DNA of 64,000 nt. Source: Panorpa germanica (lineage: Eukaryota > Arthropoda > Insecta > Mecoptera > Panorpidae). Under the pieces are notes generated by a model that was not told the DNA's origin, ran no database searches, and was given only the letters and a program-made list of their open reading frames with translations. This document shows, piece after piece, positions 33,330 through 60,456 of this stretch. Position numbers and translations under genes: made by a program. The stretch lies in contig OY783207.1 in assembly GCA_963678705.1 (NCBI GenBank), positions 62,001 to 126,000 of the forward strand. The letters run 5' to 3'. How positions within the stretch are numbered: the stretch's first letter is position 1; each line of letters opens with the position of its first letter.

Positions 33330-33387
33330 TCACAATATTATAGAAGATAGTAACAATTAAAATAGTGCTTTTTTCATTTAATGATTA

Positions 33388-33653
33388 TTTTTTTTTTTTT
33401 TTTATTTAACGTCGGCCTATTTCCGATGCTGAGTCCTATCACCGACGACCTCTTTCAATGTTGGCAGTATTTATGGTGTCGTGGCCTCATATATGTGGGC
33501 TACACCACTGCCTAAATAGTGTACGATTTTGTATGACCATAATCAATATAAGTTCACAATAACCAAACCCAGAAAATATATATCTGGTCCGGGGATCGAA
33601 CCCGAAGACACAGCAGTCGGCGTCAAGCATCAATGCTCTCGCCCACTGTGTCG
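33388..33653 (-). mobile_element. tRNA-derived SINE
   Basis: On the minus strand a 266-bp unit begins with a tRNA-like head. Its box A resembles TGGGCGAGAGCATTG and its box B is GGGTTCGATCCCCGG. It ends in an A run, seen as T's on the plus strand from 33,388. The 14-bp target duplication TCATTTAATGATTA is at 33,374-33,387 and 33,654-33,667. Copy F carries a single unduplicated TAATCATTAAATGA at the same place, which proves insertion. Such elements move with LINE machinery. Confidence 0.9.
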
Positions 33654-33899
33654 TCATTTAATGATTAAAGGGCTAAAAATTTACACAAAAAGTGTTGCAG
33701 TACATGACGTCATTGCTTCCTCACCTTTTGTCACACTATCATTAGCCAAACTTTACAATCATTGTTAAACGTCAAAGCTATAGCAGCTGTTACGTCGACT
33801 CATAATGTTTCAATATACTGTAGTGATATAAAACGAAAAATAAATAATATTACTTATTATATTCATTTCAGTTCGTGACATCATCAACTACGAGGATAC

Positions 33900-46542: not shown

Positions 46543-46563
46543 TATATATATATATATATATAT

Positions 46564-46620
<57 letters not shown>
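46543..46620. repeat. (TA)n tract between Helitron and Polinton
   Basis: TA repeats with one TGGA interruption near 46,562. The Helitron ends at its left edge and the Polinton begins at its right edge. Confidence 0.9.
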
Positions 46621-46622
<2 letters not shown>

Positions 46623-46979
46623 TAGTATATAATACCAGAGTCCTGACTCAAACTCAGTTTTGATAGATTTGACATCTAAAAATTTATCAAATTAGTATAT
46701 CATAGAGAGGTTTCGAACTCAAACTCAGTTTTAATAGATTTGACATCTGAAAATTTATCAAATTATTATGTGTAACAAAATATCAAATATTTTTTAAAAA
46801 ATTGCAATATTTCTAACACAAATCCAAAATTGATATAAATTGCAATAATTGATAATATATATCAAAATATTGATACATATTTAGACCTCTAACGATTTAT
46901 TAATAAGGGGGGTCTTTAAGACACCTCAACATTTTTTATGTTCATAAAATACTGACTAATTTTTTTTCTATTAAATGGA
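46621..46979 (+). repeat. Polinton left terminal inverted repeat
   Basis: 359 bp, with about two mismatches from the right copy. It contains an internal direct repeat of about 52 bp (AAACTCAGTTTTGATAGATT and AAACTCAGTTTTAATAGATT). Its inner edge runs through the first codons of the gene at 46,975. Confidence 0.93.
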
Positions 46980-47304
46980 AAATAAAAAATGCTCAACATG
47001 TAAACAAACCTTATCTCTGGATAATTTTTATTCAAATAAAAGTAAAAAAGATAATTCAAGTAATATTTGTAAAAATTGTGATTTAAATTATAAAAAACAA
47101 ACTATTACTTGTGAATGTGGCAAAATAATTTCAAAATTTTTTTATAAAAAACATTTAAAAACGAATTATCATCGATTAACACTTAATAAAGCTAGAAAAT
47201 GTTCTTCTTGTCAAATTGAAAAACCATACGAAGAATTTCATAAAAATCAAAGTGATGCATTGGGATATTCTTATACCTGTAAAGAAAAGAGCAAAAGTAT
47301 CTAA
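46975..47304 (+). CDS. Polinton small zinc-finger protein
   Basis: A 109-codon frame, the only Polinton gene on the plus strand. It has CSTC and CKNC pairs (residues about 6-40), CECGK with a following HLKTNYH pair (about 50-67), and CSSC near 77 followed by a final Cys. The cysteine-pair pattern with F between suggests treble-clef fingers, as in small proteins often carried by such elements. The role is unknown; DNA binding is inferred. Its start codon lies at the inner end of the terminal repeat behind TATTAAATGG. Confidence 0.7.
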   Translation: MENKKCSTCKQTLSLDNFYSNKSKKDNSSNICKNCDLNYKKQTITCECGKIISKFFYKKHLKTNYHRLTLNKARKCSSCQIEKPYEEFHKNQSDALGYSYTCKEKSKSI

Positions 47305-47815
47305 TTTACTAACTTGTTGCTATATCAATTATTTTCAAGTATTGCACAACTCACAAACACACAATATTTATTAGAATTCGTTTATTGAGTTTAAAGCCAG
47401 CACGACATTTACATCTTTTTACAGACGTCGAGTCTTTAATTCGGTTTTTTAATTTTGAATAGAATTTTTTTGAATTTAATACAACAAGATACTTTTGAGA
47501 TTTAATACGACCAAGTCTTTACCTATGATACTGACTTTGATCTGCACTAATATAAGATGTGCACCTCTTATAAAACGCATACTCAAAACCATAATATCAT
47601 AGTTATCCCAACATATGAAAAATTAAAACTTGTATATATAGTCCATAATTACAACGTACAATACTACTGAGAGCTAAGACGTGAATCATCCCATACAAAT
47701 GAGATTTCGTTAATTAGTGTCACCATCTATTATTAATTATTATATGCAGAACTCTGAAAGAGAAATAAAAAAAAAAGATTTGTCACATGTGGGATTCGAA
47801 CGCATGCTCAACATA
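47305..47815. other. Polinton spacer
   Basis: The space between the convergent zinc-finger and metalloprotease genes. No frame was recognised. GTGGGATTCGAACGCATGCT near 47,789 resembles a tRNA T-arm, but no tRNA body is visible around it. Confidence 0.5.
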
Positions 47816-49309
47816 TTAATTAAGTTCAAAACTACTTTGTGGTACGAGTTTCTTTAATAAAATTTTTAACTGTTCTAAAATTGTCATATTTGGACAGGGT
47901 ATATCAAACACAGATAAGTCTTTTTTACCTGATCTAATTAATGAATTTGAAAACTCATTATATTCATAAAAATTGTCATTATGAAAAAAATATAATAGTC
48001 CATTTATATATCTAAATACATTAGAAACGTTCAACGGTATCCCCGGAAATAAGTCTGATAAGAGACCATAACGTATTGGAGATAACGAACACTCATTTAG
48101 TTCTATATAAAGGTTATCATAAAAAACATATGTTTGACCTGTATATGAGTTAAAAATACTTGTAATCATTTTATTTTGTGGAATACCTAGCCTTTGTAAA
48201 GGAACTCCATTGTAATTATTATTTACTACAAAACTAGGATAACTCATTATGTAAAATAACTCATCAACAATTATTAATATTTCACCTGAAGGTCTTTGAT
48301 ATATATGAGATATTTTTTCTATATCTTTAGGTAAAAATTTTAAATAATCTGTTATCAGTTCCGGTTCCTGATATATCTTATCATCAATTTTTATTCTCCA
48401 CACATACTTGTTATAAAATATATAGAGATTATGATTCACAATTAAAAACGTATCTATATTTTTATATACATTGCAAAGAATAGATTTATTGGTTGGAGCG
48501 TTTGAAATAGTTGTTGGAATACTAGTTGGAATAGTAGTTGGAATTATTGGAGTTATTGGAGGACCATATAACCTCTGAACTGCATAAATATCATCTTGAC
48601 TGAGATTATTCTTTCTTCTATAATAAGGAAACATTATTGCTTCTTCATGTGCAGAATGTTCAATACCTAACGTATGTCCAATTTCGTGTATTAATACAGA
48701 ATACAAACTAGTTTTCTCAGTGTTATTATCATACAAATCCCAATCTTCAGACCTATCTAAATGAATTTCTAAACAACTATTATTTGTATTAGGATACGTT
48801 GCATGTGCTAATACTGTTCCTTCGCCATCAAAATCCCAATTACAAAAACCTTTTGTACATCGAGCATTATTTTTATGTTTATGTATATCGCTTGCAAACG
48901 AAATTAATATATCAGGCTTATAAATATTATTATAAAAAGTCAGACCACTTACTATCGACCAAACATTAAAAGCTTTTTGAGTAATTTCTTTGTGTATTGA
49001 TTGAGCTAAAGCAAAATGCCAATACAAAGTTTTTCTATCCCATTTCGTTGTATGAATTCTATATTGTAAAGGATTATCTTCATTTCCACATCTTGGTGTT
49101 TTAATTAACTTTAATGCTTTATCAATAGGTAAATTATAATATTCTTGAAAAAGTATTAAAGAGCCTTCAGAGTCTTTAGTACTCTCTGGAGCGCTACTAT
49201 TAGTAGTTGAGAAACCAAAATGATTTAAATATTTTTCAATGTTTTTATCGGAGTCCTCGTTTGTTGAAAATATTGGTAAAAGAAATAAAAAGTAAAAAAT
49301 AAATATCAT
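47816..49309 (-). CDS. Matrix metalloprotease with hemopexin repeats (Polinton cargo)
   Basis: A 497-residue frame with all parts of a secreted matrix metalloprotease. A signal peptide (MIFIFYFLFLLPIF) is followed by a propeptide ending in a cysteine-switch-like TPRCGN (about residue 73). The catalytic domain has the zinc site HEIGHTLGIEHS and a following Met-turn-like AIMFPYY. A short Thr/Pro/Ile linker leads to four hemopexin-like blades closed by cysteines (CNVYKN near 279 and CPN near 472). Such enzymes cut extracellular matrix. In viruses, granuloviruses are known to carry one. Inside a Polinton it is likely a captured host gene. A mini-hairpin-derived SSAPESTKDSEGS stretch lies near residue 38. 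The frame looks whole. The ATG is preceded by TATATAAATG. Confidence 0.9.
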   Translation of the reverse strand: MIFIFYFLFLLPIFSTNEDSDKNIEKYLNHFGFSTTNSSAPESTKDSEGSLILFQEYYNLPIDKALKLIKTPRCGNEDNPLQYRIHTTKWDRKTLYWHFALAQSIHKEITQKAFNVWSIVSGLTFYNNIYKPDILISFASDIHKHKNNARCTKGFCNWDFDGEGTVLAHATYPNTNNSCLEIHLDRSEDWDLYDNNTEKTSLYSVLIHEIGHTLGIEHSAHEEAIMFPYYRRKNNLSQDDIYAVQRLYGPPITPIIPTTIPTSIPTTISNAPTNKSILCNVYKNIDTFLIVNHNLYIFYNKYVWRIKIDDKIYQEPELITDYLKFLPKDIEKISHIYQRPSGEILIIVDELFYIMSYPSFVVNNNYNGVPLQRLGIPQNKMITSIFNSYTGQTYVFYDNLYIELNECSLSPIRYGLLSDLFPGIPLNVSNVFRYINGLLYFFHNDNFYEYNEFSNSLIRSGKKDLSVFDIPCPNMTILEQLKILLKKLVPQSSFELN

Positions 49310-49319
49310 TTATATATTA

Positions 49320-49607
49320 AATAGTATCTCCTTTATAAGGAGCGCTGTTGTTAAATAGTATCTCCTTTTTAAGGAGCGTTGTTGTTAAATAGTCTCCTCA
49401 AATTTATTTAAAACCATATCAAATTTATTTTTAATATGAGATAACAACATAATATAACAACATGTATCATTTTCAACTTTCTTATCAAGATCAACATGTA
49501 AAAATTATGTTTTATTTGAAATTTCTGTATCTGTTGGTTGACAAGTTAAATCAACTAAATAAACAGGTCCAAGTTCTTTATAACTTTTTATATCATAGAA
49601 CATATTT
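49320..49607. other. Polinton spacer with gene remains and mini-hairpins
   Basis: Two copies of the mini-hairpin repeat lie at 49,325-49,385. The rest has protein-like composition on the minus strand but no complete frame, probably worn element sequence. Confidence 0.45.
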
Positions 49608-49970
49608 TTATCTGTTATAGAAAATATTTTTTTCATTATATTGTTGAATTCGTGTATCATTATAAAATATCTCCGAAGGTTGTAAGAAATATTTTATTAA
49701 TTCTTTAGGCGGTTTAGCGTTTCCATAAGAATCAAAATAATATATTTTATTATTATTTTTATAATAAGCAGTCCAATGACTTCCTGTTTGATATGAATTT
49801 TGTAAATTTATAATTCCACATTCAATATTATTGGGTTTATCTGGTAATTCATCTTTCATAAACACACCTCTAAAATTTTTAATTTTTAATTTTTCAACTA
49901 AATTTTCAATATCTATGTTCGACAATGGCTGTATCTCCTTCGGAGCGCTCTGAAGGAGTATCTGCTTCAC
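49608..49970 (-). CDS. Adenain-type cysteine protease (Polinton PRO, fossil)
   Basis: About 120 codons. It contains IENLVEKLKIKNFRGVFMKD and ECGIINLQN, then GSHWTAYYK with the catalytic His, and IYYFDSYGNAKPPKEL with the catalytic Asp. These are the typical text of the ULP1/adenain-like maturation protease of Polintons and adenovirus relatives, which cleaves capsid proteins. The start is unclear because the region is overlaid by mini-hairpin sequence shared with the neighbouring gene. It looks broken. Confidence 0.8.
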   Translation of the reverse strand: MKQILLQSAPKEIQPLSNIDIENLVEKLKIKNFRGVFMKDELPDKPNNIECGIINLQNSYQTGSHWTAYYKNNNKIYYFDSYGNAKPPKELIKYFLQPSEIFYNDTRIQQYNEKNIFYNR

Positions 49971-50413
49971 AGTGCTCGGAACGAGTATCTCCTTTGGAGC
50001 GCTAAATCTTTTTTTTTTAAACCACTTCCTTTTTTCTCCATTGCTAAATCATGTCTTTTTTGTTCTTCAAGTTCTTTATCTTTAGCTGATTTATTTATAA
50101 CTGAATTAGTAATTGCAGATGCTCCACCTATTAATGATCCTAAAGCAGCTAATCCAGCAAATACTAATGGAAGAAATCCACCCTCATGATTTTTTTTCAG
50201 AGCTCCAAAGGAGATTTTTATTCTACAACCTGTTTTCTCTTTTATTGCCTTCTTAATTCTATTTGATAATCTTTTTGTTAATAATATTTTATTTTCACCA
50301 CCACTAATTAATTGATCATATTTTAAGTGAATTAAAATATCCTTTTTATCCTTATAGGCTTTATTAATATTACTAGTTTGATGTTTTGTTAAATTTGTTT
50401 GGAATGTTTCCAT
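49967..50413 (-). CDS. pX-like capsid-associated peptide (Polinton)
   Basis: 148 codons. A basic N-terminal half is followed by GGFLPLVFAGLAALGSLIGG (about residues 90-110), a Gly/Ala/Leu-rich membrane-active-like segment, then SAKDKELEEQKRHDLAMEKK and GSGLKKK. Polintons and adintovirus-like elements often carry such a protein, compared with adenovirus core protein X/pVI. The segments ISFGALKK and RRYSFRAL are encoded by mini-hairpin repeats. TAATAAATGG precedes the start. Function is assigned by resemblance only. Confidence 0.65.
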   Translation of the reverse strand: METFQTNLTKHQTSNINKAYKDKKDILIHLKYDQLISGGENKILLTKRLSNRIKKAIKEKTGCRIKISFGALKKNHEGGFLPLVFAGLAALGSLIGGASAITNSVINKSAKDKELEEQKRHDLAMEKKGSGLKKKDLALQRRYSFRAL

Positions 50414-50442
50414 TTATTACTAAAATAAAGTATCTCTCCTTT

Positions 50443-51972
50443 TTATGCTAATCCAAAACCAATTTTATGTTTTAATTTCATTCCTGTTGTAACAAGCCAT
50501 GCATTTGTTTTCTCACCAATACTACTATCAGAACTCTTAACTCTGTTCCAAGCTTTCTGTTCTAAAACTTTATCAGCTTCATGTCTCTTTTCCAAGTCTT
50601 TATTTTCACTATAAGCAATATCATGTTCTTTACAAGCTTCGTCTAAACCATTAATTCCTTTATCACCTCTTGCTAATCTATCATGTAATTTAGTACCAGG
50701 ACCACAATAATTATATCCAGGAAGATGCATTTCAAATGGTAGGGTATTTATAATTGTATTTAGTACACCTGATCCTCTTATAATTTTCTTTGGTAATGAT
50801 GTTGCAATTTTTATTAAATATTCACACCCTTTTGGAGTATCTAATATTTTTTCAATTTCATTATTAAAAAATTTTAACACTCCTAATTTTTCATTATGAA
50901 AATTAATATTTCCTGCATTTTCTTGTGCATTAATATATTGTAAACGATTTATTAATTGATTCAAATTTGAAATATATTGAACTTCTATTTTATTATCATT
51001 GTATTCTCTCCAATGAGAGAGCTCCGAAGGAGATTCTTTCCATTGAAAGCGCTCCGAAGGAGATTCTTTCCATTGAGAGACACCAGAACCTTCTTTCTCT
51101 TCTTTAAAATTACTATCATAATATAAATCTTGTTTCATACCTGTTTTAATATAATCATGTATATATTTTATCATTGTAGTCCATTTAATTGTTGGTGATG
51201 AAAGAGGTTTATTAATTTTGTTGTTTAAAGCATTAGAATTTATTATAATATCTCTGTAGTCTATATAGTCATCTTTTGTAAATAATCGTAGATCAGGTTT
51301 ACCACCATAAGTTAATAAATACCATAATCCAACAGTTCCATTATAGGTTTTTTTACCATCAATAGTAATTCCATCATCTTTATCAAGTTCCATTTTACTA
51401 TTACCTATTTTTAATTCGTTATTAACAGATTTTGGTCCAAATATTTTATCAAACTTGTAATCTTTATCCATACTAAGTTGCAAATATGTTGATGCGTTTG
51501 TTCCATATATTTTTATTTTTGAAAAATCAAACTTTCTTGGAGTAACAGGTTCTGTTAATTCTTTTTTACTCGGTGTAACAGGTTCTGATATAGTAAAATA
51601 TGGTTGTAATTGTTTAGTTTCTCCTTCAGAACTTTTAATAATATCTTCATCTATTTTTCCTAACGCTGATAATAATGGAGCATATTCTTTTTCTTTAGTA
51701 GTCTTATATTTTAAATTTTGTAATTCAATTTTTTTATATTTCTCATATAGTTTATTTCTAATCTCATCTGCTTTTTGAGCTTCTAATAATTTATCTGATT
51801 CTGTTTTACAGCGCACTGAAGGTGATTTTGGTTTCCAACGCTCCGAAGGATCCAATGTTTTCTTTTTTTTCTCAGAGATTTGTATAGATCCTTTTTTATA
51901 TGTTTTAATTAATTTATCTCGCATTTTATCTATTTTTTTAGCTTCGGAAACGGTTAAGATGTCTCCTTCCAT
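50443..51972 (-). CDS. Phospholipase A2-domain protein (Polinton)
   Basis: 509 codons. The N-terminal 130 residues are charged and contain two similar IRNKL/MRDKL helices. A middle domain has the GTVGLWYLLTYGG signature (about residues 213-230), a pattern I associate with a domain often found in Polinton-like structural proteins. The C-terminal 100 residues hold a parvovirus-like phospholipase A2: YCGPGTK calcium loop and DEACKEHDIAY catalytic His-Asp. In parvoviruses this activity opens endosomes during entry. SPSERFQWKESPSELSHW near residues 305-322 is encoded by two mini-hairpin repeats. TAATAAATGG precedes the start. The frame looks whole. Confidence 0.82.
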   Translation of the reverse strand: MEGDILTVSEAKKIDKMRDKLIKTYKKGSIQISEKKKKTLDPSERWKPKSPSVRCKTESDKLLEAQKADEIRNKLYEKYKKIELQNLKYKTTKEKEYAPLLSALGKIDEDIIKSSEGETKQLQPYFTISEPVTPSKKELTEPVTPRKFDFSKIKIYGTNASTYLQLSMDKDYKFDKIFGPKSVNNELKIGNSKMELDKDDGITIDGKKTYNGTVGLWYLLTYGGKPDLRLFTKDDYIDYRDIIINSNALNNKINKPLSSPTIKWTTMIKYIHDYIKTGMKQDLYYDSNFKEEKEGSGVSQWKESPSERFQWKESPSELSHWREYNDNKIEVQYISNLNQLINRLQYINAQENAGNINFHNEKLGVLKFFNNEIEKILDTPKGCEYLIKIATSLPKKIIRGSGVLNTIINTLPFEMHLPGYNYCGPGTKLHDRLARGDKGINGLDEACKEHDIAYSENKDLEKRHEADKVLEQKAWNRVKSSDSSIGEKTNAWLVTTGMKLKHKIGFGLA

Positions 51973-52001
51973 TTATTAATAAAATAATGCATCGTTCCTT
52001 T

Positions 52002-52679
52002 TCAAAGAGCATCAACACTCTTAATATATCCATCAACGTCTTTAAACATATAACGTTCATTAATGTTATCTTTTTCACGATTGATACATAAGAAACCATA
52101 TTTTATTTTCCAACATTTATTACATAACTCTTTAAATTTATTTAAATCCATATCAGCACCGACAATTGTTTTATGAATCTCTTGAATACTATATAAATCC
52201 TGTTTAAACAATATAATTAAATTACAATTATTTCTAATCAAATTTTTATTTGTTTCAAGAAAACTTTGACTAAGATAAAAACAAGATAATTTTTTATGTC
52301 TTCCACTATAAAAATATTTTTTAAACATATCTTGATCTTCTACTAAACAATCATCAAACACAACAACACTATCAGTTATACAATCTTCAACAGGAATAAT
52401 ATTTTCACAATTATTAAAATGCGAATCCACTGTATCTATCTCACTAAAAATTCTTTCTAATGCTTTATATATTTTTTGATTTAATGTTGTTGTATAAATA
52501 TATAGACCTTTGAATTCTATAAAAGGTTGTGTAAGAAAATTAAATAACAACCATGTTTTACCACAATTTGATGGACCACATAATAAACATCTTAATGGTT
52601 TTGGAAATATTCTTTTTGTGTTTTTCTGTTCTTCAAATATATAATCTTTTATTTGGAAGGAGGAGAACCTGTTAGTCAT
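52002..52679 (-). CDS. Packaging ATPase, FtsK/HerA type (Polinton)
   Basis: 225 codons. The Walker A is CGPSNCGKTWL (about residues 34-44) and the Walker B is SVVVFDDCLVE (about 105-115), followed by FYLSQSFLETNKNLIRNNCN with the sensor region. This is the A32-like genome packaging ATPase typical of Polintons, adenovirus-like elements and large DNA viruses. Its start overlaps the end of the upstream gene by eight bases and carries TAATAAATG. The frame looks whole. Confidence 0.9.
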   Translation of the reverse strand: MTNRFSSFQIKDYIFEEQKNTKRIFPKPLRCLLCGPSNCGKTWLLFNFLTQPFIEFKGLYIYTTTLNQKIYKALERIFSEIDTVDSHFNNCENIIPVEDCITDSVVVFDDCLVEDQDMFKKYFYSGRHKKLSCFYLSQSFLETNKNLIRNNCNLIILFKQDLYSIQEIHKTIVGADMDLNKFKELCNKCWKIKYGFLCINREKDNINERYMFKDVDGYIKSVDAL

Positions 52680-53565
52680 TTATTAAACAACAAAAATGTA
52701 AATATGTTATAATTCTACTAAATATTTGACACTTATTTCCTTCTAAGTCATAAACATTTAAAATAATTTCTTGAAATTTATCAATTCGATTTGAAATATC
52801 AATATAAATAATTTCATTTGGATTTAAAAACTGTCTTGCAATATTTGTATCTAATTTAAATACATAAAGTAAATTATCGTCTTTATGTGAATGTGGATGA
52901 ATATCATGATTTGAATGACTTGATTCTACAATATTACAATGTATTTCATATAAATTATTATTAATAACCCTTTTTTCTTTAGGTAATATAAGAAGACCTT
53001 CTATAATTTTATTTTGTGGAACAATACCAATTCCAATTATATTATTAATTGTTTTTGAAAATATTAATTTAACTGGACTATTAATTTTTACTTTATTTTG
53101 ATTAACAACATCCATTACAAATAAACCATAATCAAAAAAATTTTGAGAACTATGAAAACTTTTTTCTTTTGGTATTTCTCCAGATGGTGTAAAAGTTACA
53201 TAATTTAAAAAATCATCAGCATTTTCCTCAGAAATATCAAATACATGTCGATTATTATTAATTTTAAATTTTTCAGATTTTATTATATAAACCATACGAG
53301 TTAAAAATTGTATAATTTTTGTTTCCAAATCATTAATAGAATATATACCTGCTTTTACATTACAAATTAATAAATAATGACCATATATAGTTTCCCAAAT
53401 AATATCTATATTAAATTTAGGATATTCTAATTTTGTAAAAATATTTATATGAATTAAATCATATTTAAAACCAGATACTCCAATTTTATATTTTTTATGT
53501 GGATCAAGAATAATTGGATGTTCAAATCTCAATTTGTTTCCAATAATTTTAATAAATTTTCCCAT
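52672..53565 (-). CDS. Putative minor capsid (penton-like) protein (Polinton)
   Basis: 297 codons. The beginning, RFEHPIILDPHKKYKIGVSGF (shortened here), followed by many beta-strand-like segments, fits the single jelly-roll minor capsid protein of Polintons, and the position next to the packaging ATPase agrees. No catalytic motif is visible. Assignment is from pattern and context, so moderate. TAATAAATAATGG precedes the start. Confidence 0.5.
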   Translation of the reverse strand: MGKFIKIIGNKLRFEHPIILDPHKKYKIGVSGFKYDLIHINIFTKLEYPKFNIDIIWETIYGHYLLICNVKAGIYSINDLETKIIQFLTRMVYIIKSEKFKINNNRHVFDISEENADDFLNYVTFTPSGEIPKEKSFHSSQNFFDYGLFVMDVVNQNKVKINSPVKLIFSKTINNIIGIGIVPQNKIIEGLLILPKEKRVINNNLYEIHCNIVESSHSNHDIHPHSHKDDNLLYVFKLDTNIARQFLNPNEIIYIDISNRIDKFQEIILNVYDLEGNKCQIFSRIITYLHFCCLIND

Positions 53566-53600
53566 TATTTATTACAGAAAAAAGAAAGCCTTCGCAGTCT

Positions 53601-54596
53601 TTAGCAAATCTTACATTTTTGAAGTTCTTTATTATAAAATCCACCAATGACTTCTTCACCATTTAAATCTTCTATTTTATATGTTATTGGATTGGTATAT
53701 AAAATTTTATGAAGTTTAAATATTTCATTTGTCCAATTAGTTTCATATTTATTTGAAAATGTTGATTTGAATTTTGTTATTCTAACTTTATCACCAATTT
53801 TGAATTTTGAGATATTTTCATAAAATCTATCCCTATTGGGAGAGTATACAGTATTCAAAATATATTTTTCATTATCTTTATTAACTTCAAAGGGTTTCAT
53901 TTTGATAGTTCGATGATAATCTTTATAATTATACTCTTTTATTAAAGTATCTAATATATTTATCCATTTAAAATTATTATTTGCTGTAAAATAGGGTTTC
54001 ATCTTACGATTCAAAGTACCATTAAATCTTTCAATAATTGTAGATTTTTCTTCATTTTCAGTGTGATACATTTTTATATTATATTTATCCAAAATGTTTA
54101 TAAAATCTTTATTAACAAATTCTAAGCCTTTATCAACATGTAATAATTTTGGTTTTCTATTATGTAATAATGATTCAAAAGCTTTAGCAACTGATTTTCC
54201 TGTTTTATATTTTAATGGTTTAGACCAAACAAATTTTGAAAAAGTATCAATAACATTTAATATATATTTATAACCATTATTATCATCAGCATATTTTCTC
54301 ATAATAACTAAATCTGCAGCCCATAAATCATCTATTCCAAGTGTTATAACTTTTCTTCGTCTAAATTTTTTAATAACTGGTTTATGTAATTCAATTGCTT
54401 CTTTTAAAAGAACTTCAGAGTTTTTTTTTGTAGGGCTCTGAAAGAGATTCTTAATAAATTGACTTTTATTACTATTACAAATTTTACATTTTGCTGATAA
54501 TCTGTATTTATTATTTTCTGTTTTAATTGTTTTAATATCAATATTATCTGTTTTCTTTTTGCATTTTACACAATATACTCGTTCTGAGATATCCAT
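53601..54596 (-). CDS. Retroviral-type integrase (Polinton INT)
   Basis: 331 codons. The N-terminal zinc ribbon has CVKCKKK and CKICNSNK (residues about 9-43). The rve core has the catalytic Asp in LWAADLVIM (about 92), the second in HVDKGLEF (about 155) and the Glu in STIIERFNGTL (about 190). A small SH3-like C-terminal part follows (FKIGDKVRITK, then YKIEDLNGEEVIGGFYNKEL). It would join element ends to host DNA. TAATAAATGG precedes the start. The frame looks whole. Confidence 0.92.
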   Translation of the reverse strand: MDISERVYCVKCKKKTDNIDIKTIKTENNKYRLSAKCKICNSNKSQFIKNLFQSPTKKNSEVLLKEAIELHKPVIKKFRRRKVITLGIDDLWAADLVIMRKYADDNNGYKYILNVIDTFSKFVWSKPLKYKTGKSVAKAFESLLHNRKPKLLHVDKGLEFVNKDFINILDKYNIKMYHTENEEKSTIIERFNGTLNRKMKPYFTANNNFKWINILDTLIKEYNYKDYHRTIKMKPFEVNKDNEKYILNTVYSPNRDRFYENISKFKIGDKVRITKFKSTFSNKYETNWTNEIFKLHKILYTNPITYKIEDLNGEEVIGGFYNKELQKCKIC

Positions 54597-54644
54597 TTAT
54601 TACAATAAATAAATGCTCCCTGAAAGAGCGCTCTGAAGGAGATT

Positions 54645-55097
54645 CTATTTTAAAGATGGTATTCCATTTTTATTTGCTTTCTTTAAATATTTATCCAATG
54701 GAAAAAATTTAAGATTTTCAATAAATTCTGCTTCTTTAATATAAACATCATTTTCATTTATTATATTTGCTTTTATTTGTGTTAACATTTGATTATAAAA
54801 TTTATAGGCCACTTTATACTCAGACATTTTTTCTTTTATTTGAATTTTTTTATCTAAAACTTCAATTATTACCCCACCTAAACTTAATGCTCCTAATGGT
54901 ATTAAAATTAAATCTGGTAATCCACTTGGCAGCGCTCCGAAGGAGAATCCAGATGCACTAAATAATACTTTACTTATTGTTAAACCAATATCAATTTTTT
55001 GATAATAATTATAACTTTTTCTATATACATACATTCGTTTTTCAATATATGTTTTGGAGGAGATAATCTCCTTTGGAGAGCTCTGAAAGAGATTCAT
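54645..55097 (-). CDS. Two-helix membrane protein (Polinton, unknown role)
   Basis: 150 codons. Two hydrophobic segments lie at about residues 36-57 and 62-82, followed by a long charged helix. The loop between the membrane segments (SFGALPSGLP) is encoded by a mini-hairpin repeat. I do not recognise a family. TAATAAATGAA precedes the start, so it is probably expressed like its neighbours. Confidence 0.6.
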   Translation of the reverse strand: MNLFQSSPKEIISSKTYIEKRMYVYRKSYNYYQKIDIGLTISKVLFSASGFSFGALPSGLPDLILIPLGALSLGGVIIEVLDKKIQIKEKMSEYKVAYKFYNQMLTQIKANIINENDVYIKEAEFIENLKFFPLDKYLKKANKNGIPSLK

Positions 55098-55165
55098 TTA
55101 TTATAAAAAATATTTTTTTTTATTGACTAAAAGTAATGTTATGTTTTTCGTATTTATCATTTATA

Positions 55166-55420
55166 TTATTCTCCTTCGGAGCGCTGCAAAGCAGTTTTAC
55201 CTTTGTATATTAATTTCAATAATTTCAAATCATCTGGATTATCAATTATTTTATTATATTTTTCTGGTAAACTCAATTTCTTCTTATTTTCAAGAGTTAA
55301 AATTATTCTATCTCCATATTTTGATGTTATCATTTTTGCATTCATAATGAGATAGGGTATATTTAATTCTAACTCTAACAAATTTATGAAATTATTATAA
55401 AGATTATTAATGTTATTCAA
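55166..55420 (-). CDS. Small conserved Polinton protein, OB-like (role unsure)
   Basis: 84 codons. After a helical beginning, YLIMNAKMITSKYGDRIILT and KLSLPEKYNKII suggest a small beta-barrel like single-strand DNA-binding OB folds; this is inference from pattern. The last residues, KTALQRSEGE, come from a mini-hairpin repeat. A dense cluster of such repeats lies immediately upstream (55,440-55,600), with a TAATAAATG at about 55,603. Confidence 0.45.
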   Translation of the reverse strand: MNNINNLYNNFINLLELELNIPYLIMNAKMITSKYGDRIILTLENKKKLSLPEKYNKIIDNPDDLKLLKLIYKGKTALQRSEGE

Positions 55421-55439
55421 TTTGTTTATTAATTCTTCT

Positions 55440-55600
55440 TTGGAGAGCTTTGAAAGAGATTCTATTTTGGAGAGCTTTGAAAGGGATTCTGTTTTACAAA
55501 GCTCTGAAAGAGTATCTGCACTCCAGCGTTCCTAAGCAGTATCTCCTTCGGAGCGTTGTGAAACAATATCTGCATTGGAGAGCTTTGAAAGAGAGACGTT
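55440..55600. repeat. Cluster of mini-hairpin repeats
   Basis: Six or seven diverged copies in a row of a roughly 24-bp word such as GGAGAGCTTTGAAAGAGATT, one of them (near 55,545) the full CTCCTTCGGAGCG form. It is the densest group of this repeat in the Polinton. Confidence 0.85.
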
Positions 55601-58600
55601 CATTTATTATAGAAAAATTCATCAATATTTTTATGACCATATGATAGTCTATTAAATTTATCAATTAAATATTTTTTATCATCATAAGGACTTAATCCAA
55701 TTTTTTCTTCTTGAATAGTATATAATTGTAGCTTAAATGATCTTATACTATAACTAGTTTCAATTGTTCTTTCTTGTTTAAATAAACAATCTTTATATTT
55801 ATCAAATGTCTTTTTCATAATATTAACTTTTTTAATTCCTTTACATATTTTCTTCTCATGATTATCAGTTCTAAACGCATACATTTTTTATCATAATCCA
55901 CAATATTCTCTAATTGGAATACCATTATATTCATCTTTAAATAATCCAGGAATTTTTTTATTTTTTTGAGGTATATTATTAGGATGATCATCTGGATAAT
56001 CACTTGTATCAAAATATTCGATATTATTTTTTATATCTTCATAAAAATCATCTGTTTCAACATGTATAATAAAGGAATCTGTATCAGTGCTTAATAGTTT
56101 AACTTTATCACCATATTTAGGTTTTAAATAGTTATAATAAAATTTATACATTAATAGTTTTGATAATTCGAGTATAGAAAATCCACCAAATATAGGCTTA
56201 TTTAATTTAACTCTAGCTTTTTTTCCATATATGGGGACGGTATCTTCATTTAATATACTTCTATCTTGATAATGACTTGAATTTATCATTTTTTGCATTG
56301 CTTCTTCAGATTTAATTAATTTTACATTTAATCTATTTCTAACGTTTTCCATTTGTTTTCCATATACACTATTATTCATTAATTTAAAGAAATCTTTTTC
56401 AAAATCATTTTTAGCATTTTGTCGTAATTTAGTATTTTTATCAATATATGATTTTAACCATGCTTTTTGTATATTTTTAATACCTTTATTAATATTAAAT
56501 AATTTAGCACCTTGTCTTATATATTCTTTTAATATTCTATAATCTATAATATAATTTTTTTTATTGTATAACGTACACATTAATTTTTTATTCTCTTTTG
56601 ATGGTTTTGATCCTAATCCAATATCAATCATATGTTTTTGATATTCTGATAATTCATCATATTTTGGTGAATAGTGTTCAGGAGCTAATGCATAATCATT
56701 AAATTTATCATGTAATTCTTTTGGAATTCCTAAATTAACATCTAATATATATCCTATGTCCCCCTCATCATCGATACTCATTATATTTTTTTTTAAATCT
56801 TGAATATCTTCCTTTGACAGCCATTCATGATTAGATATTGGTAGTTTTTGAGACATTGCCCAACCATATAAATTATTAGCATCTAAATACATTATATAAC
56901 TCAAATGTTTTTTTGAATTATATATACCCTTTTCTTCAGCTTTTTCTTTTGATAATTTTATAACTTTCTCATGCTTTTCATCATAGAAATAACAATTATT
57001 TGATAAAGCATAATTATTTGATATCATACTAATTCCACCACGAATACCTTTTTCAGTAAATTCATACATTTCTTGATCTTGATATAATTCTAATGTTTGT
57101 TTGGTATATTTTAATGAAGCTGAGTTAGCTAAATGTGGAGCACTCATAAAATAAACTGGATCTAATTGATATTCCTTATAACACATATCTCTAAAATTAT
57201 TAAATACATCATATAATAATATACTATCTAATCTTAAATATCTATCATGATATTCACCAAAAGTATCAATATTAAAATGTTTCCAAAAGTCTTTGGCAAA
57301 TTTATATTGTTTATCAGTTATTGTTTTACAATTTGAATTGGAATAAAATTCTTTAATATCTGGTAAATTTAATGCATCGAACTTTTTATAATCATCAACC
57401 CATTCATATGGATAAACTCCTTTTTGTAATAAAAAAGCTTTTCCTTCTAATGAATAATTTTTATATCTTTCATTAAAATATTTAAAAGAACTATAATCAC
57501 ATATTTTTTCAATTTTAGTATTACAATATTCACAATCATCATATGCTATTATACCCTCTGGAGTCTTGCAAAGCAGTATAGGGTTTTTTAATTCTCGTTG
57601 TTTCTTACATTTATAACAATATCCAGAGTTAATATTTAATAAATTTTTAATTGCTTTATCTAATGAAACACCCATAAATGCTAATGTATCAATAAATCTT
57701 ATTTCCATAAAACTTTGTATTATTGTTCCTTTTGGTGTTATTTTAAGTTTTTCCCATTTATATGTGCAACTATCATTTTTACATTCTATATGAGATTCTC
57801 CTTCAAAGAGCTCTGTAAGAGATTTTCCTTCAAAGAGTTTTATAAGAGATTCTCCTTCGGAGAGATCTATAAGAGATTCTGTTTCTGATTCGCAGAGTTG
57901 CTTAGCAGTTTTATAGATATTTTGACATTTTAAACATTTGATTTTATTTTCTCCACACACTTCAAGTTTTGTTATACCTTCACATTTATAACATTTTTCA
58001 AAAAGGTTTTCACCTTTTCTTGATATTTTACAATTTGAGCAATATATTGAATCTTGTTTTGTTTCATATTCATTTACCAAAACTCGTTTTGATAAATATT
58101 TATAATTTTCAGTTGTATCAGCAAGTATTTTAATATTTTCAGCTTCTTTGCTCAATTTTAAAATCCATTCAATAAATATTTTTGAATCATATTTTATATT
58201 ATGTATTCCAATGGGTACAAAATTGGGTAATTTTAAATTTAAATTACAAGATTTATGTGCGGCACCTCTAAATTTACCAGTTATGTGATCATGATCCCAA
58301 ACTTTATTAGAAGGAAGACCTTCAAAATCTTTACCACAAATATGACAATTTGTTTGTGATTCAAATAATTTTATATCTTCTTCATTTCATTTCATAGGTT
58401 CATTTATTTTCTTTATTTTGTAATAATTTTTTGCCAAATCTGTTAAATCGTTATTAAATGTTTTCATTAATATATTAGAGTCTTTTTCTCTTCTCAAAAT
58501 AGTTTTTTCATTTGTAGTAAAACAATAACTATTTGGAATGTGTTTAGAAATAATTTTTTTATTATTTATTTTATCTGAGGGAAAATCTTTAGATAATGTA

Positions 58601-59995
58601 CATTCAAAATCTAATGTTGTAAAATAAGGGTGATATATTTCTGCTCCATTAGATTTATAAAATAATTTGTATGTTTTTTCAGCTGGCATAGTTATATTTC
58701 TAGTTGAGATTCCACAAATTTTTGCATGGGTATTATATTGTATAATAGTTTCAAAGCTCTTACTACATTTATTACAAATATAAAGATGATTATTGTTATG
58801 ATGAATTTTACCTTTTAATAAACTACTTAAATTTTTTATACCAACAAAATGGTAAATTCTTATCCATTCCTCTTCATTCAATTGTTCAATACAACTAAGG
58901 ACTAATAAGTTAACATGTGTTTTATCATTAGAAATATTTTTACTTCTATAGCCAAATATTATTTGTTCCTCCCTTTCTGCATTTTCTATTTTTATTAATT
59001 CATATAAATTAATTGAAATATTTAAAAACTGTTCATATTTTTCAATAATGTCTTGAGATATAGCAATCGGATAATCCATTTCTAATTCCTCATATCTTGT
59101 TATATTATATTTTGATGGTCTACAATTATTCTTACCTACTGGATTTAGTATACTTTCTAAAGCATATTCAAAACATCTTTCATCTTCTTCTTTCTCACAC
59201 TTAAATTGTCTAGTTCTAATATTTTCCACATTTACACAACATTTTTTATTTATTATCCATTTTGGTAAATCAATATATGATCCACCTTTTATTGGTTGAA
59301 ATTTATCTCGAAATAAAACAGAATATTTTACTTGTTTAAATCTATATTTAGAGTTCTTTTCAGTCCATTGATCAAATTTATTATCAATTATATCTTCAAT
59401 AATTTTAACCAATTTATGAATATCTTTTACATAACTAGAAACTTCTATATTATCAGTACTAAATTTATTTGTGTGTGTATTTACTTCTTCTCCATCTTGA
59501 TTTAATTCTACATACTCAATAAAAGTAGAAAGTTTAAACTTTATATATTTATATTTTTCAATTTGAAATTTTATATAGTTTGTTAATGGTTTTCCAATTT
59601 CTTCAAAATGTGTATTAATATCTTCATTATTTTTTGAAACAAAATATTTATCACTTATTAATCCTTTAAATGCTTTATGTGGTTTTAATTCTAATTCTTT
59701 AATCAATCTCTTCCTTTCTAAATTTCTTTCAAAATCTATTGGTTTAGGGAATATATCTTCATCATCATCTTTGATACTTCTAAATGGGGATAAATATGGT
59801 TTTTCTATTGTTAATGGGATATCAACATTTTGGAATGGTGGTATATACTCTTCTGTTCTAGTATTATTAATATATCTCATTATTGTATTAATTAATTGTG
59901 CTTTTCTTAACTGAGATACTCCTCGAATTTTATTATCTCTACAATATTGTTTTAATTGGATCATAGTTTGAGTTTGAAATTGGTTTCTTTGATAA

Positions 59996-60000
<5 letters not shown>
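55600..60000 (-). pseudogene. Protein-primed DNA polymerase B (Polinton PolB, fossil)
   Basis: The gene fills the right third of the element. An N-terminal SAP-like helix pair (QLKQYCRDNKIRGVSQLRK) leads to an exonuclease-side region with TLDFECTLS. Zinc-binding cysteine pairs follow, then the polymerase motifs LDANNLYGWAM, KLMNNSVYGKQMEN and STDTDSFI, and a tail ending in LSYGH. Together these identify a Polinton-type family B polymerase, which would copy the element. A run of SEGESLIKLFEGKSLTELF-like text comes from three tandem mini-hairpins. The gene is broken, with about two breaks. Confidence 0.9.

Positions 60001-60456
<456 letters not shown>

Follow-up and report, generated by a model that had tools for sequence, protein, structure and literature searches.

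A 24-bp mini-palindrome that very probably moves within the DNA of a Polinton lineage in Panorpa germanica

How does a repeat of only 24 bp come to sit in spacers and genes throughout one virus-like element of an insect genome? We analysed a window of 64,000 nucleotides from Panorpa germanica (contig OY783207.1 of assembly GCA_963678705.1, positions 62,001 to 126,000 of the forward strand; coordinates below are those of the window), which contains a 13.9-kb (13,890-bp) Polinton at 46543-60432, bounded by terminal inverted repeats. A first-pass annotation of this window had noticed a short word recurring at least twenty times within 49150..57910, in a span taken for a Polinton, and had offered three explanations, a selfish mini-repeat, a recombination site or a packaging signal. 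The observation proved real, and the element extends past that span on both sides; of the three explanations the selfish mini-repeat fits best, and no positive evidence emerged for the other two. The repeat is very probably a mobile mini-palindrome, neither a chance word nor a conserved motif. We give a probability of about 0.5 to its being copied by template switching at WATC words (W being A or T) while the element replicates.

In its idealised form the repeat is a 24-bp palindrome, CTCCTTCGGAGCGCTCCGAAGGAG, made of two 11-nt mini-hairpins, CTCC-TTC-GGAG and CTCC-GAA-GGAG, with a CG linker between them; a 3-bp word, TAT or AAT, completes a unit of 27 bp. The 20-mer AGCGCTCCGAAGGAGATTCT has 13 matches in the window at up to three mismatches, all within 49930-57866, and none of 100 shuffles reached this number (mean 0). 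At nine or more of its 11 bases, the half-hairpin CTCCGAAGGAG was counted 23 times in the 13.9-kb element, where a Markov null gives 0.35 (maximum 2 in 60); the other 50.1 kb of the window has a single match. Once partners in register were added, the count in the element rose to 39 half-hairpins (27 distinct), each chosen by sequence similarity or by its register with another half-hairpin, which agrees with the twenty or more occurrences first noticed. The half-units have a GC content of 49% versus 24% for the element. They occur in both orientations and in all three codon phases, as the several frames of translation had indicated, and Tandem Repeats Finder detected arrays with a period of 27 bp as well as 30- and 34-bp variants.

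The stems of these half-hairpins covary. All four stem pairs have changed on both sides (shuffle mean 2.0, with 3 of 500 shuffles as high), the covariation cells number 20 versus 5.0 in shuffles, and the covariation score is 0.638 versus 0.303, neither of the latter two values being reached in 500 shuffles. Slid registers that still contain all four pairs scored at most 0.13. The covariation indicates that the hairpin is kept while the sequence of the unit drifts, which may reflect selection or self-templated correction. Selection on the mRNA strand was considered from an excess of T-G over C-A mismatches in the GAA-loop orientation (21 versus 3), but both genome strands are involved, CpG decay is possible and the arrays are not independent, and we make no such claim. 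A parallel with the stable d(GCGAAGC) mini-hairpin found no support, the DNA folding energies being equal for GAA and TTC loops.

Units lie in seven of the 12 mapped open reading frames (ORFs) of the window copy, namely the protease, p148, the PLA2-domain protein, the integrase, p150, p84 and the 754-aa pPolB ORF, and a degenerate one was recognised by eye in the metalloproteinase. The ATPase, p297, p94 and N-terminal pPolB ORFs of this copy hold none, so that the impression of a word inside nearly every gene was an overstatement for the window copy; p297 of other copies carries insertions of 28-30 bp. The idealised 27-mer, with either TAT or AAT, has no stop codon in any of its six frames, a property shared by 10% of its shuffles and by 0.12% of random 27-mers of element composition. 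Its persistence inside genes can be attributed to the addition of whole codons by a unit that, in its ideal form, is stop-free in every frame. The earlier proposal that length and lack of stops let the word enter genes harmlessly holds for this idealised unit and for most indels, by the lengths given below. Of eight unit forms tried, four have a stop in at least one frame.

Other copies of the element contain the unit as a discrete presence or absence, as had been predicted for a repeat spreading within it. When 38 sequences (the element of the window and 37 loci) were aligned in pairs, they gave 833 clean indels of 10-60 bp; 324 of these measure exactly 27 bp and 65 the next commonest length, 30 bp. 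Motif-bearing indels of 20-40 bp number 451, with 298 of 27 bp and 409 in multiples of three, all of these being pairwise counts that are not independent and fall into 44 site groups. Eight sites were tried with typed flank words, and three gave clean tables, two in the PLA2 gene and one in p297. At the first PLA2 site (51113..51115) the unit is present in 30 loci (27 bp in 29, 26 bp in one) and absent from five, including the window; around 51114 there is one TAT when the site is empty and two when it is filled. The second PLA2 site belongs to a pair of units in the N-terminal part of the gene (51797..51852, period 27 in Tandem Repeats Finder), one of which is present in 15 loci and absent from 10, including the family B copy L062. 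The p297 site (52848..52850) is empty in the window and in L062 and holds a 30-bp unit in copies L012 and L013. At a metalloproteinase site (48719), where the window has no unit and 27 loci show a gain of 21-30 bp, the flank words found 30 filled loci and no empty one. The words for the sites 5p_L023 and POLB recovered empty loci only, as they misfit the filled ones, and the results for the integrase site and for a site 5' of the metalloproteinase were ambiguous or overlapping and were not used. Solo insertions are found in the PLA2 gene, in p297, in pPolB (56770..56774, empty in the window, with a 27-bp unit in copy L020) and beside an extra ORF near 49633.

Distant homologs were compared at the same genes. 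The PLA2 insertion SQWKESPSERFQWKESPSELSHWRE, formed by 30-bp repeats at 51003..51080 that differ by 30 and 21 bp among copies, corresponds to a plain gap in nine of the ten homologs covering it, which pass from GSG straight to the next conserved block; the tenth, P0123, shows a short stretch unrelated to it. P0130 and P0142 were uninformative. The word is a clean insertion here, as the first-pass annotation had expected. Similarly, the pPolB homolog P0241 (62% identical, 607 residues) gave no blastp match to residues 60-124, a stretch that includes the 27-bp tandem array at 57785..57880 (SEGESLIKLFEGKSLTELFEGESHIE); a second alignment of pPolB with homologs was too gappy to inform. A conserved motif is therefore not borne out at the PLA2 site or against P0241. 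The integrase is uninformative in this respect because its unit sits in a linker of variable length among homologs. None of 360 listed homolog proteins (120 from each of three homolog searches) contained the repeat peptides, which says little as many of these proteins are partial. The units were probably gained rather than lost, as judged by their direct repeats, by the distant homologs and by a family B copy that is empty at two sites.

The genome, of 464,208,970 bp, gave 121 integrase matches, which we sorted by identity into four classes of our own: A (52 matches, 79-100%), B (20, mostly 61-68% identical, with two decayed at 50-54%), C (18, about 51%) and D (31, 44-48%). Four Polinton integrase classes coexist in this one animal genome. 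The 16-mer AGCGCTCCGAAGGAGA, at up to one mismatch, has 329 matches versus two for a reversed control; the 100 exact matches listed among them all fall within sequence alignable to the element, 71 of them in the loci collected first or in the window and 29 in loci collected later. Strict units flanked on both sides by WATC number 53, versus none in the control, and all are in Polinton sequence: 51 have one of the first 73 integrases (classes A and B and one C) no more than 15 kb away, and the remaining two were recognised as Polinton from their sequence. The half-unit word WATCTCCTTCGGAGC gave 210 matches, versus none in the control. Among the 100 of these that were listed (contigs C1-C5), 82 are within 20 kb of a class A and 14 of a class B integrase, the remaining four are Polinton pieces, and none lies within 20 kb of, and nearest to, any of the 49 class C and D integrases. 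Three matches suspected of lying outside Polintons (C132:94078, C1:12794664 and C1:12796421) turned out to be Polinton pieces. None of the matches checked (100 exact 16-mers, 53 strict units and 100 half-units) falls in host DNA; the units are mostly on megabase contigs, inside Polintons, and not in mitochondrial DNA. The restriction to Polintons that had been proposed as a sign of spread within the element is thus seen in every genome match checked. One 10-kb piece of each further class contains nine half-hairpins for B (L062) and none for C (L063) or D (L064). Among the pieces read, then, the mini-palindromes appear to mark two (A and B) of the four integrase-defined classes. Two patterns of the repeat found no match in a collection of viral contigs.

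When sites were defined by structure, 17 of 29 had a 3-bp direct repeat in half or more of their copies, and an empty form was found for 13 of the 29 (at up to three mismatches), some of these in arrays and one being a self-match in a tandem array. At the 19 sites with any repeat the word is TAT/ATA (12) or AAT/ATT (7). Sites defined by similarity gave a direct repeat in 21 of 47, with a chance expectation of 0.049 each. At 26 sites chosen for an xAT repeat, the next base is C in 21 and the preceding one G in 17, partly owing to tandem neighbours. The word is also linked to the centre of the unit, TAT units being of CG type in 15 of 15 cases and AAT units in five of 11 (Fisher p 0.002; these sites had been chosen for an xAT repeat, and a few may be counted twice). 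The same unusual 24-mer was found at two sites of a single copy, L013.

These features suggest the following model. The mini-palindrome would be a non-autonomous, selfish resident in the DNA of a Polinton lineage, and its 27-bp unit would land at WAT words, most of which have C as the next base, with one WAT remaining on either side. A replication fork would stall at a hairpin, switch template through WATC, copy one 27-nt unit and return at a second WATC. The setting would probably be extrachromosomal viral DNA, during replication of the element by protein-primed strand displacement. Template switching through WATC would account for the constant word, its linkage to the centre of the unit, the size of 27 bp, the growth of tandem arrays and the confinement to DNA replicating apart from the chromosomes, and it would need no enzyme; copying on extrachromosomal viral DNA would explain why host DNA is spared. 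The linkage between word and centre and the shared 24-mer of L013 argue for this route in particular.

Several points weigh against such a reading. Neither a replication intermediate nor a new event has been seen, and constant WAT repeats are also expected from a target-specific enzyme. No direct repeat is seen at 12 of the 29 sites defined by structure and 26 of the 47 defined by similarity, so many units must have lost the repeat, be hybrids or have arrived otherwise, and the Fisher value carries the selection of its sites. The insertions are not polarised by a tree, the family B copy being the sole outgroup and only at two sites, and families B, C and D are each judged from one 10-kb piece. 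Among the motif-bearing indels, 42 of 451 are off frame length, for example 20, 25, 26, 29 or 40 bp, and some of the differences in unit number come from ordinary tandem slippage or gene conversion.

A serious rival is an enzyme that acts in trans. In one form, miniature DNA transposition, a transposase would recognise the hairpin ends and insert the 24-bp palindrome with a 3-bp WAT target-site duplication. The pairs of empty and filled sites, the 3-bp direct repeats and the precise ends are what such an enzyme would leave. Against it, the word is only ever TAT or AAT (19 of 19) and is tied to the centre of the unit, host DNA is spared in the matches checked, and no autonomous partner was met at the 100 listed half-unit matches of 210, all of them Polinton, no genome-wide search for transposases having been made. 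We also know of no transposon as short as 24 bp. Transposition is on balance unlikely, while deserving real weight.

Improbable as well is a second enzymatic route, in which an HUH/Y1-type enzyme would recognise single-stranded hairpins and a WATC tag, in the manner of the repetitive extragenic palindromic (REP)-associated tyrosine transposase RAYT with its GTAG. The paired inverted hairpins, the C after the word at 21 of the 26 selected sites and the shape preserved by covariation fit such an enzyme; no HUH/Y1 enzyme is present among the Pfam matches of the element ORFs scanned, and none was sought genome-wide. Either a target-specific transposase or a REP-like enzyme working on single-stranded DNA would explain the word and the size almost as well as template switching, and the restriction less well.

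Slippage of a minisatellite combined with exchange between copies, without true dispersal, is another account we consider improbable. It draws on the several tandem arrays of 27- or 30-bp period and variable length, but units are present or absent singly, with no neighbouring unit, at 51114 in the PLA2 gene, 56772 in pPolB and 52848 in p297, and they occur in different genes, orientations and frames; every solo site would have to be a deletion. A cis signal under selection, for packaging, replication or recombination, is very improbable. Stem covariation and the many units per element speak for it; presence/absence at many sites among copies that mostly agree at 92-96%, positions inside genes and a lack of units in the class C and D pieces read speak against it.

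The remaining units are distributed along the window copy as follows. Upstream of the metalloproteinase ORF, two 34-bp repeats (49335..49383; period 34 at 49317-49393) contain the hairpins CTCCTT-TAT-AAGGAG and CTCCTT-TTT-AAGGAG, and their number varies among copies, with indels in L002 and L005. Where the protease and p148 ORFs meet, 24-mer units separated by TAT form an array of period 27 (49932..49999), the first unit of which is missing as exactly 27 bp in L004. Word matches on the plus strand identified a half unit in p148, read as ISFGAL (50199..50218), and another in the integrase linker, read as KNLFQSPTK (54432..54451), where a further 27-bp unit is present in some copies. A degenerate unit lies between the integrase and p150 (54618..54646). 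Within p150 there is one unit read as FSFGALPSG, with an AAT/AAT direct repeat (54922..54945), and one right after the start codon, read as NLFQSSPKE (55068..55091); the latter residues are missing in L065, where the surrounding alignment is complex. The unit at the C-terminus of p84 (55171..55194) is absent from seven loci as a 25-bp difference. At the N-terminal end of p84, a 27-bp tandem array (55432..55593) varies in unit number among copies (L065, L066/L067); by reading it is not fully open in the window, and in L065 it is part of a 161-aa ORF with nine-residue repeats.

The element carrying these units is a Polinton, a family A copy, identified by its inverted arms, Pfam domains and pPolB homologs. 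Its 445-bp terminal inverted repeats (46543-46987 and 59988-60432) are 98% complementary. Both ends run into (TA)n (46543-46620 and 60355-60453), where the 6-bp target-site duplication would be sought, and the insertion may thus have occurred in a TA repeat. The minus strand encodes a matrixin with hemopexin, a protease, p148, the PLA2-domain protein, an ATPase, p297, an rve integrase, p150, p84, p94 and pPolB, the last in two ORFs with an interrupted frame. Pfam matches in the ORFs include rve (PF00665), PLA2 and matrixin; those of the ATPase (Pox_A32, E 0.0073) and the protease (Peptidase_C5, E 0.0051) are weak and under the Pfam cut-off. One of the pPolB homologs, P0274, comes from a record named adintovirus PolB, and among the named homologs of the PLA2 protein several are from insects. 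For the integrase, the viral contigs yielded one poor match (L001), with no half-hairpin at nine of 11 bases, and none by alignment; phage records gave none. BEL/Pao-type and gag-bearing retroelements lie in the flanks. The BEL/Pao-type elements and the insect homologs fit an arthropod host and led us to drop a glomeromycete fungus, which peptide look-alikes had first suggested.

The metalloproteinase (47816-49309) is of matrixin type, with a hemopexin match and the motif HEIGHTLGIEHS. Loci near class B integrases, for example L036, match this region at about 95% even though their integrases are about 67% identical, a pattern suggestive of exchange between classes. At 49633 the window copy lacks about 1.05 kb that other copies contain; in L010, the one copy inspected, this stretch contains a 334-aa ORF that is perhaps a capsid protein, whereas none of the ORFs named in the window is a major capsid candidate. 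A 272-bp piece of L004 (2195-2466), 97% identical to the host flank at 33384-33655 of the window, interrupts the PLA2 gene of that copy. By eye, six of nine element ORFs viewed share the start context AATAAATG on the minus strand (50413, 51972, 52679, 54596, 55097 and 55597), which is missing at the metalloproteinase, p297 and p94 ORFs and which we take to resemble a late-promoter word such as the poxvirus TAAATG.

Mobile palindromes without a known mover, among them GC clusters, hairpin elements and Rickettsia palindromic elements (RPEs), are a decades-old puzzle, and RPEs spread selfishly. The GC clusters of yeast mitochondria known as GC42 (Wu and Hao, 2015; PMC4478555) resemble the Polinton units as short GC-rich palindromes in AT-rich DNA with presence/absence polymorphism, a short putative target duplication (AG in GC42), a stronger conservation of stems than of loops and an open mechanism. 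They are mitochondrial and 42 nt long; the Polinton units are of 24+3 bp, on nuclear contigs inside Polintons, with covarying stems and a WAT word, and many of them lie in frame inside genes. RPEs (PMC3767692) likewise occur in pre-existing ORFs with the frame intact, comparable to the PLA2 gap and the 27-bp ORF gains seen here, but they are bacterial chromosomal repeats of 100-150 bp with insert positions largely common to orthologs, as opposed to a 24-bp unit in an animal genome, and neither a 27-bp unit nor a WAT word is described in the part of that account available. The GTAG repeats of the REP/RAYT system (PMC3733652) resemble the units in their 20-40-bp hairpins, tag tetranucleotide and occasional position inside genes, and differ in a dedicated bacterial tyrosine transposase, none of which was seen in the Polinton or sought genome-wide. 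Pithovirus M1/M2 repeats (PMC10664404) also invade a eukaryotic DNA virus as palindromic repeats, but in a giant virus, with terminal inverted repeats of 54 and 47 bp, a 37-bp middle, a TA word and intergenic positions. The mitochondrial DNA hairpin elements DHE and RHE (PMC2800124) are small, possibly mobile, single or double hairpins, although mitochondrial and mostly intergenic. Other palindromes in the literature include PARCELs, coding palindromes of Nematomorpha mitochondria, Fusarium palindromes and algal plastid palindromes. From these accounts GC42 appears nearest in behaviour and RPEs nearest for in-frame gene insertion, and the Polinton unit lacks the defining place or size of each. 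In the literature searched, which is thin on subscription journals, no such repeat is described for Polintons/Mavericks, arthropod ones included.

There is an even chance, in our estimate, that the unit is a gene-less mobile DNA of 24 bp, or 27 bp if the duplicated word is counted, too short for separate ends and copied only inside a virus-like element through that element's strand-displacement replication; it would be, to our knowledge, among the smallest mobile DNAs. Models of spread can be tested in the Panorpa genome, where dozens of natural copies provide both filled and empty sites, a usual size of 27 bp and a target word. Polintons are usually seen only as insertions, and confinement to them, if true for all matches, would suggest a DNA stage separate from the host chromosomes. 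By adding short peptides to viral ORFs, the units provide a direct route to new protein segments. If the model is true, the mini-palindrome would be a parasite of a parasite, settling in viral genes as nine extra codons.

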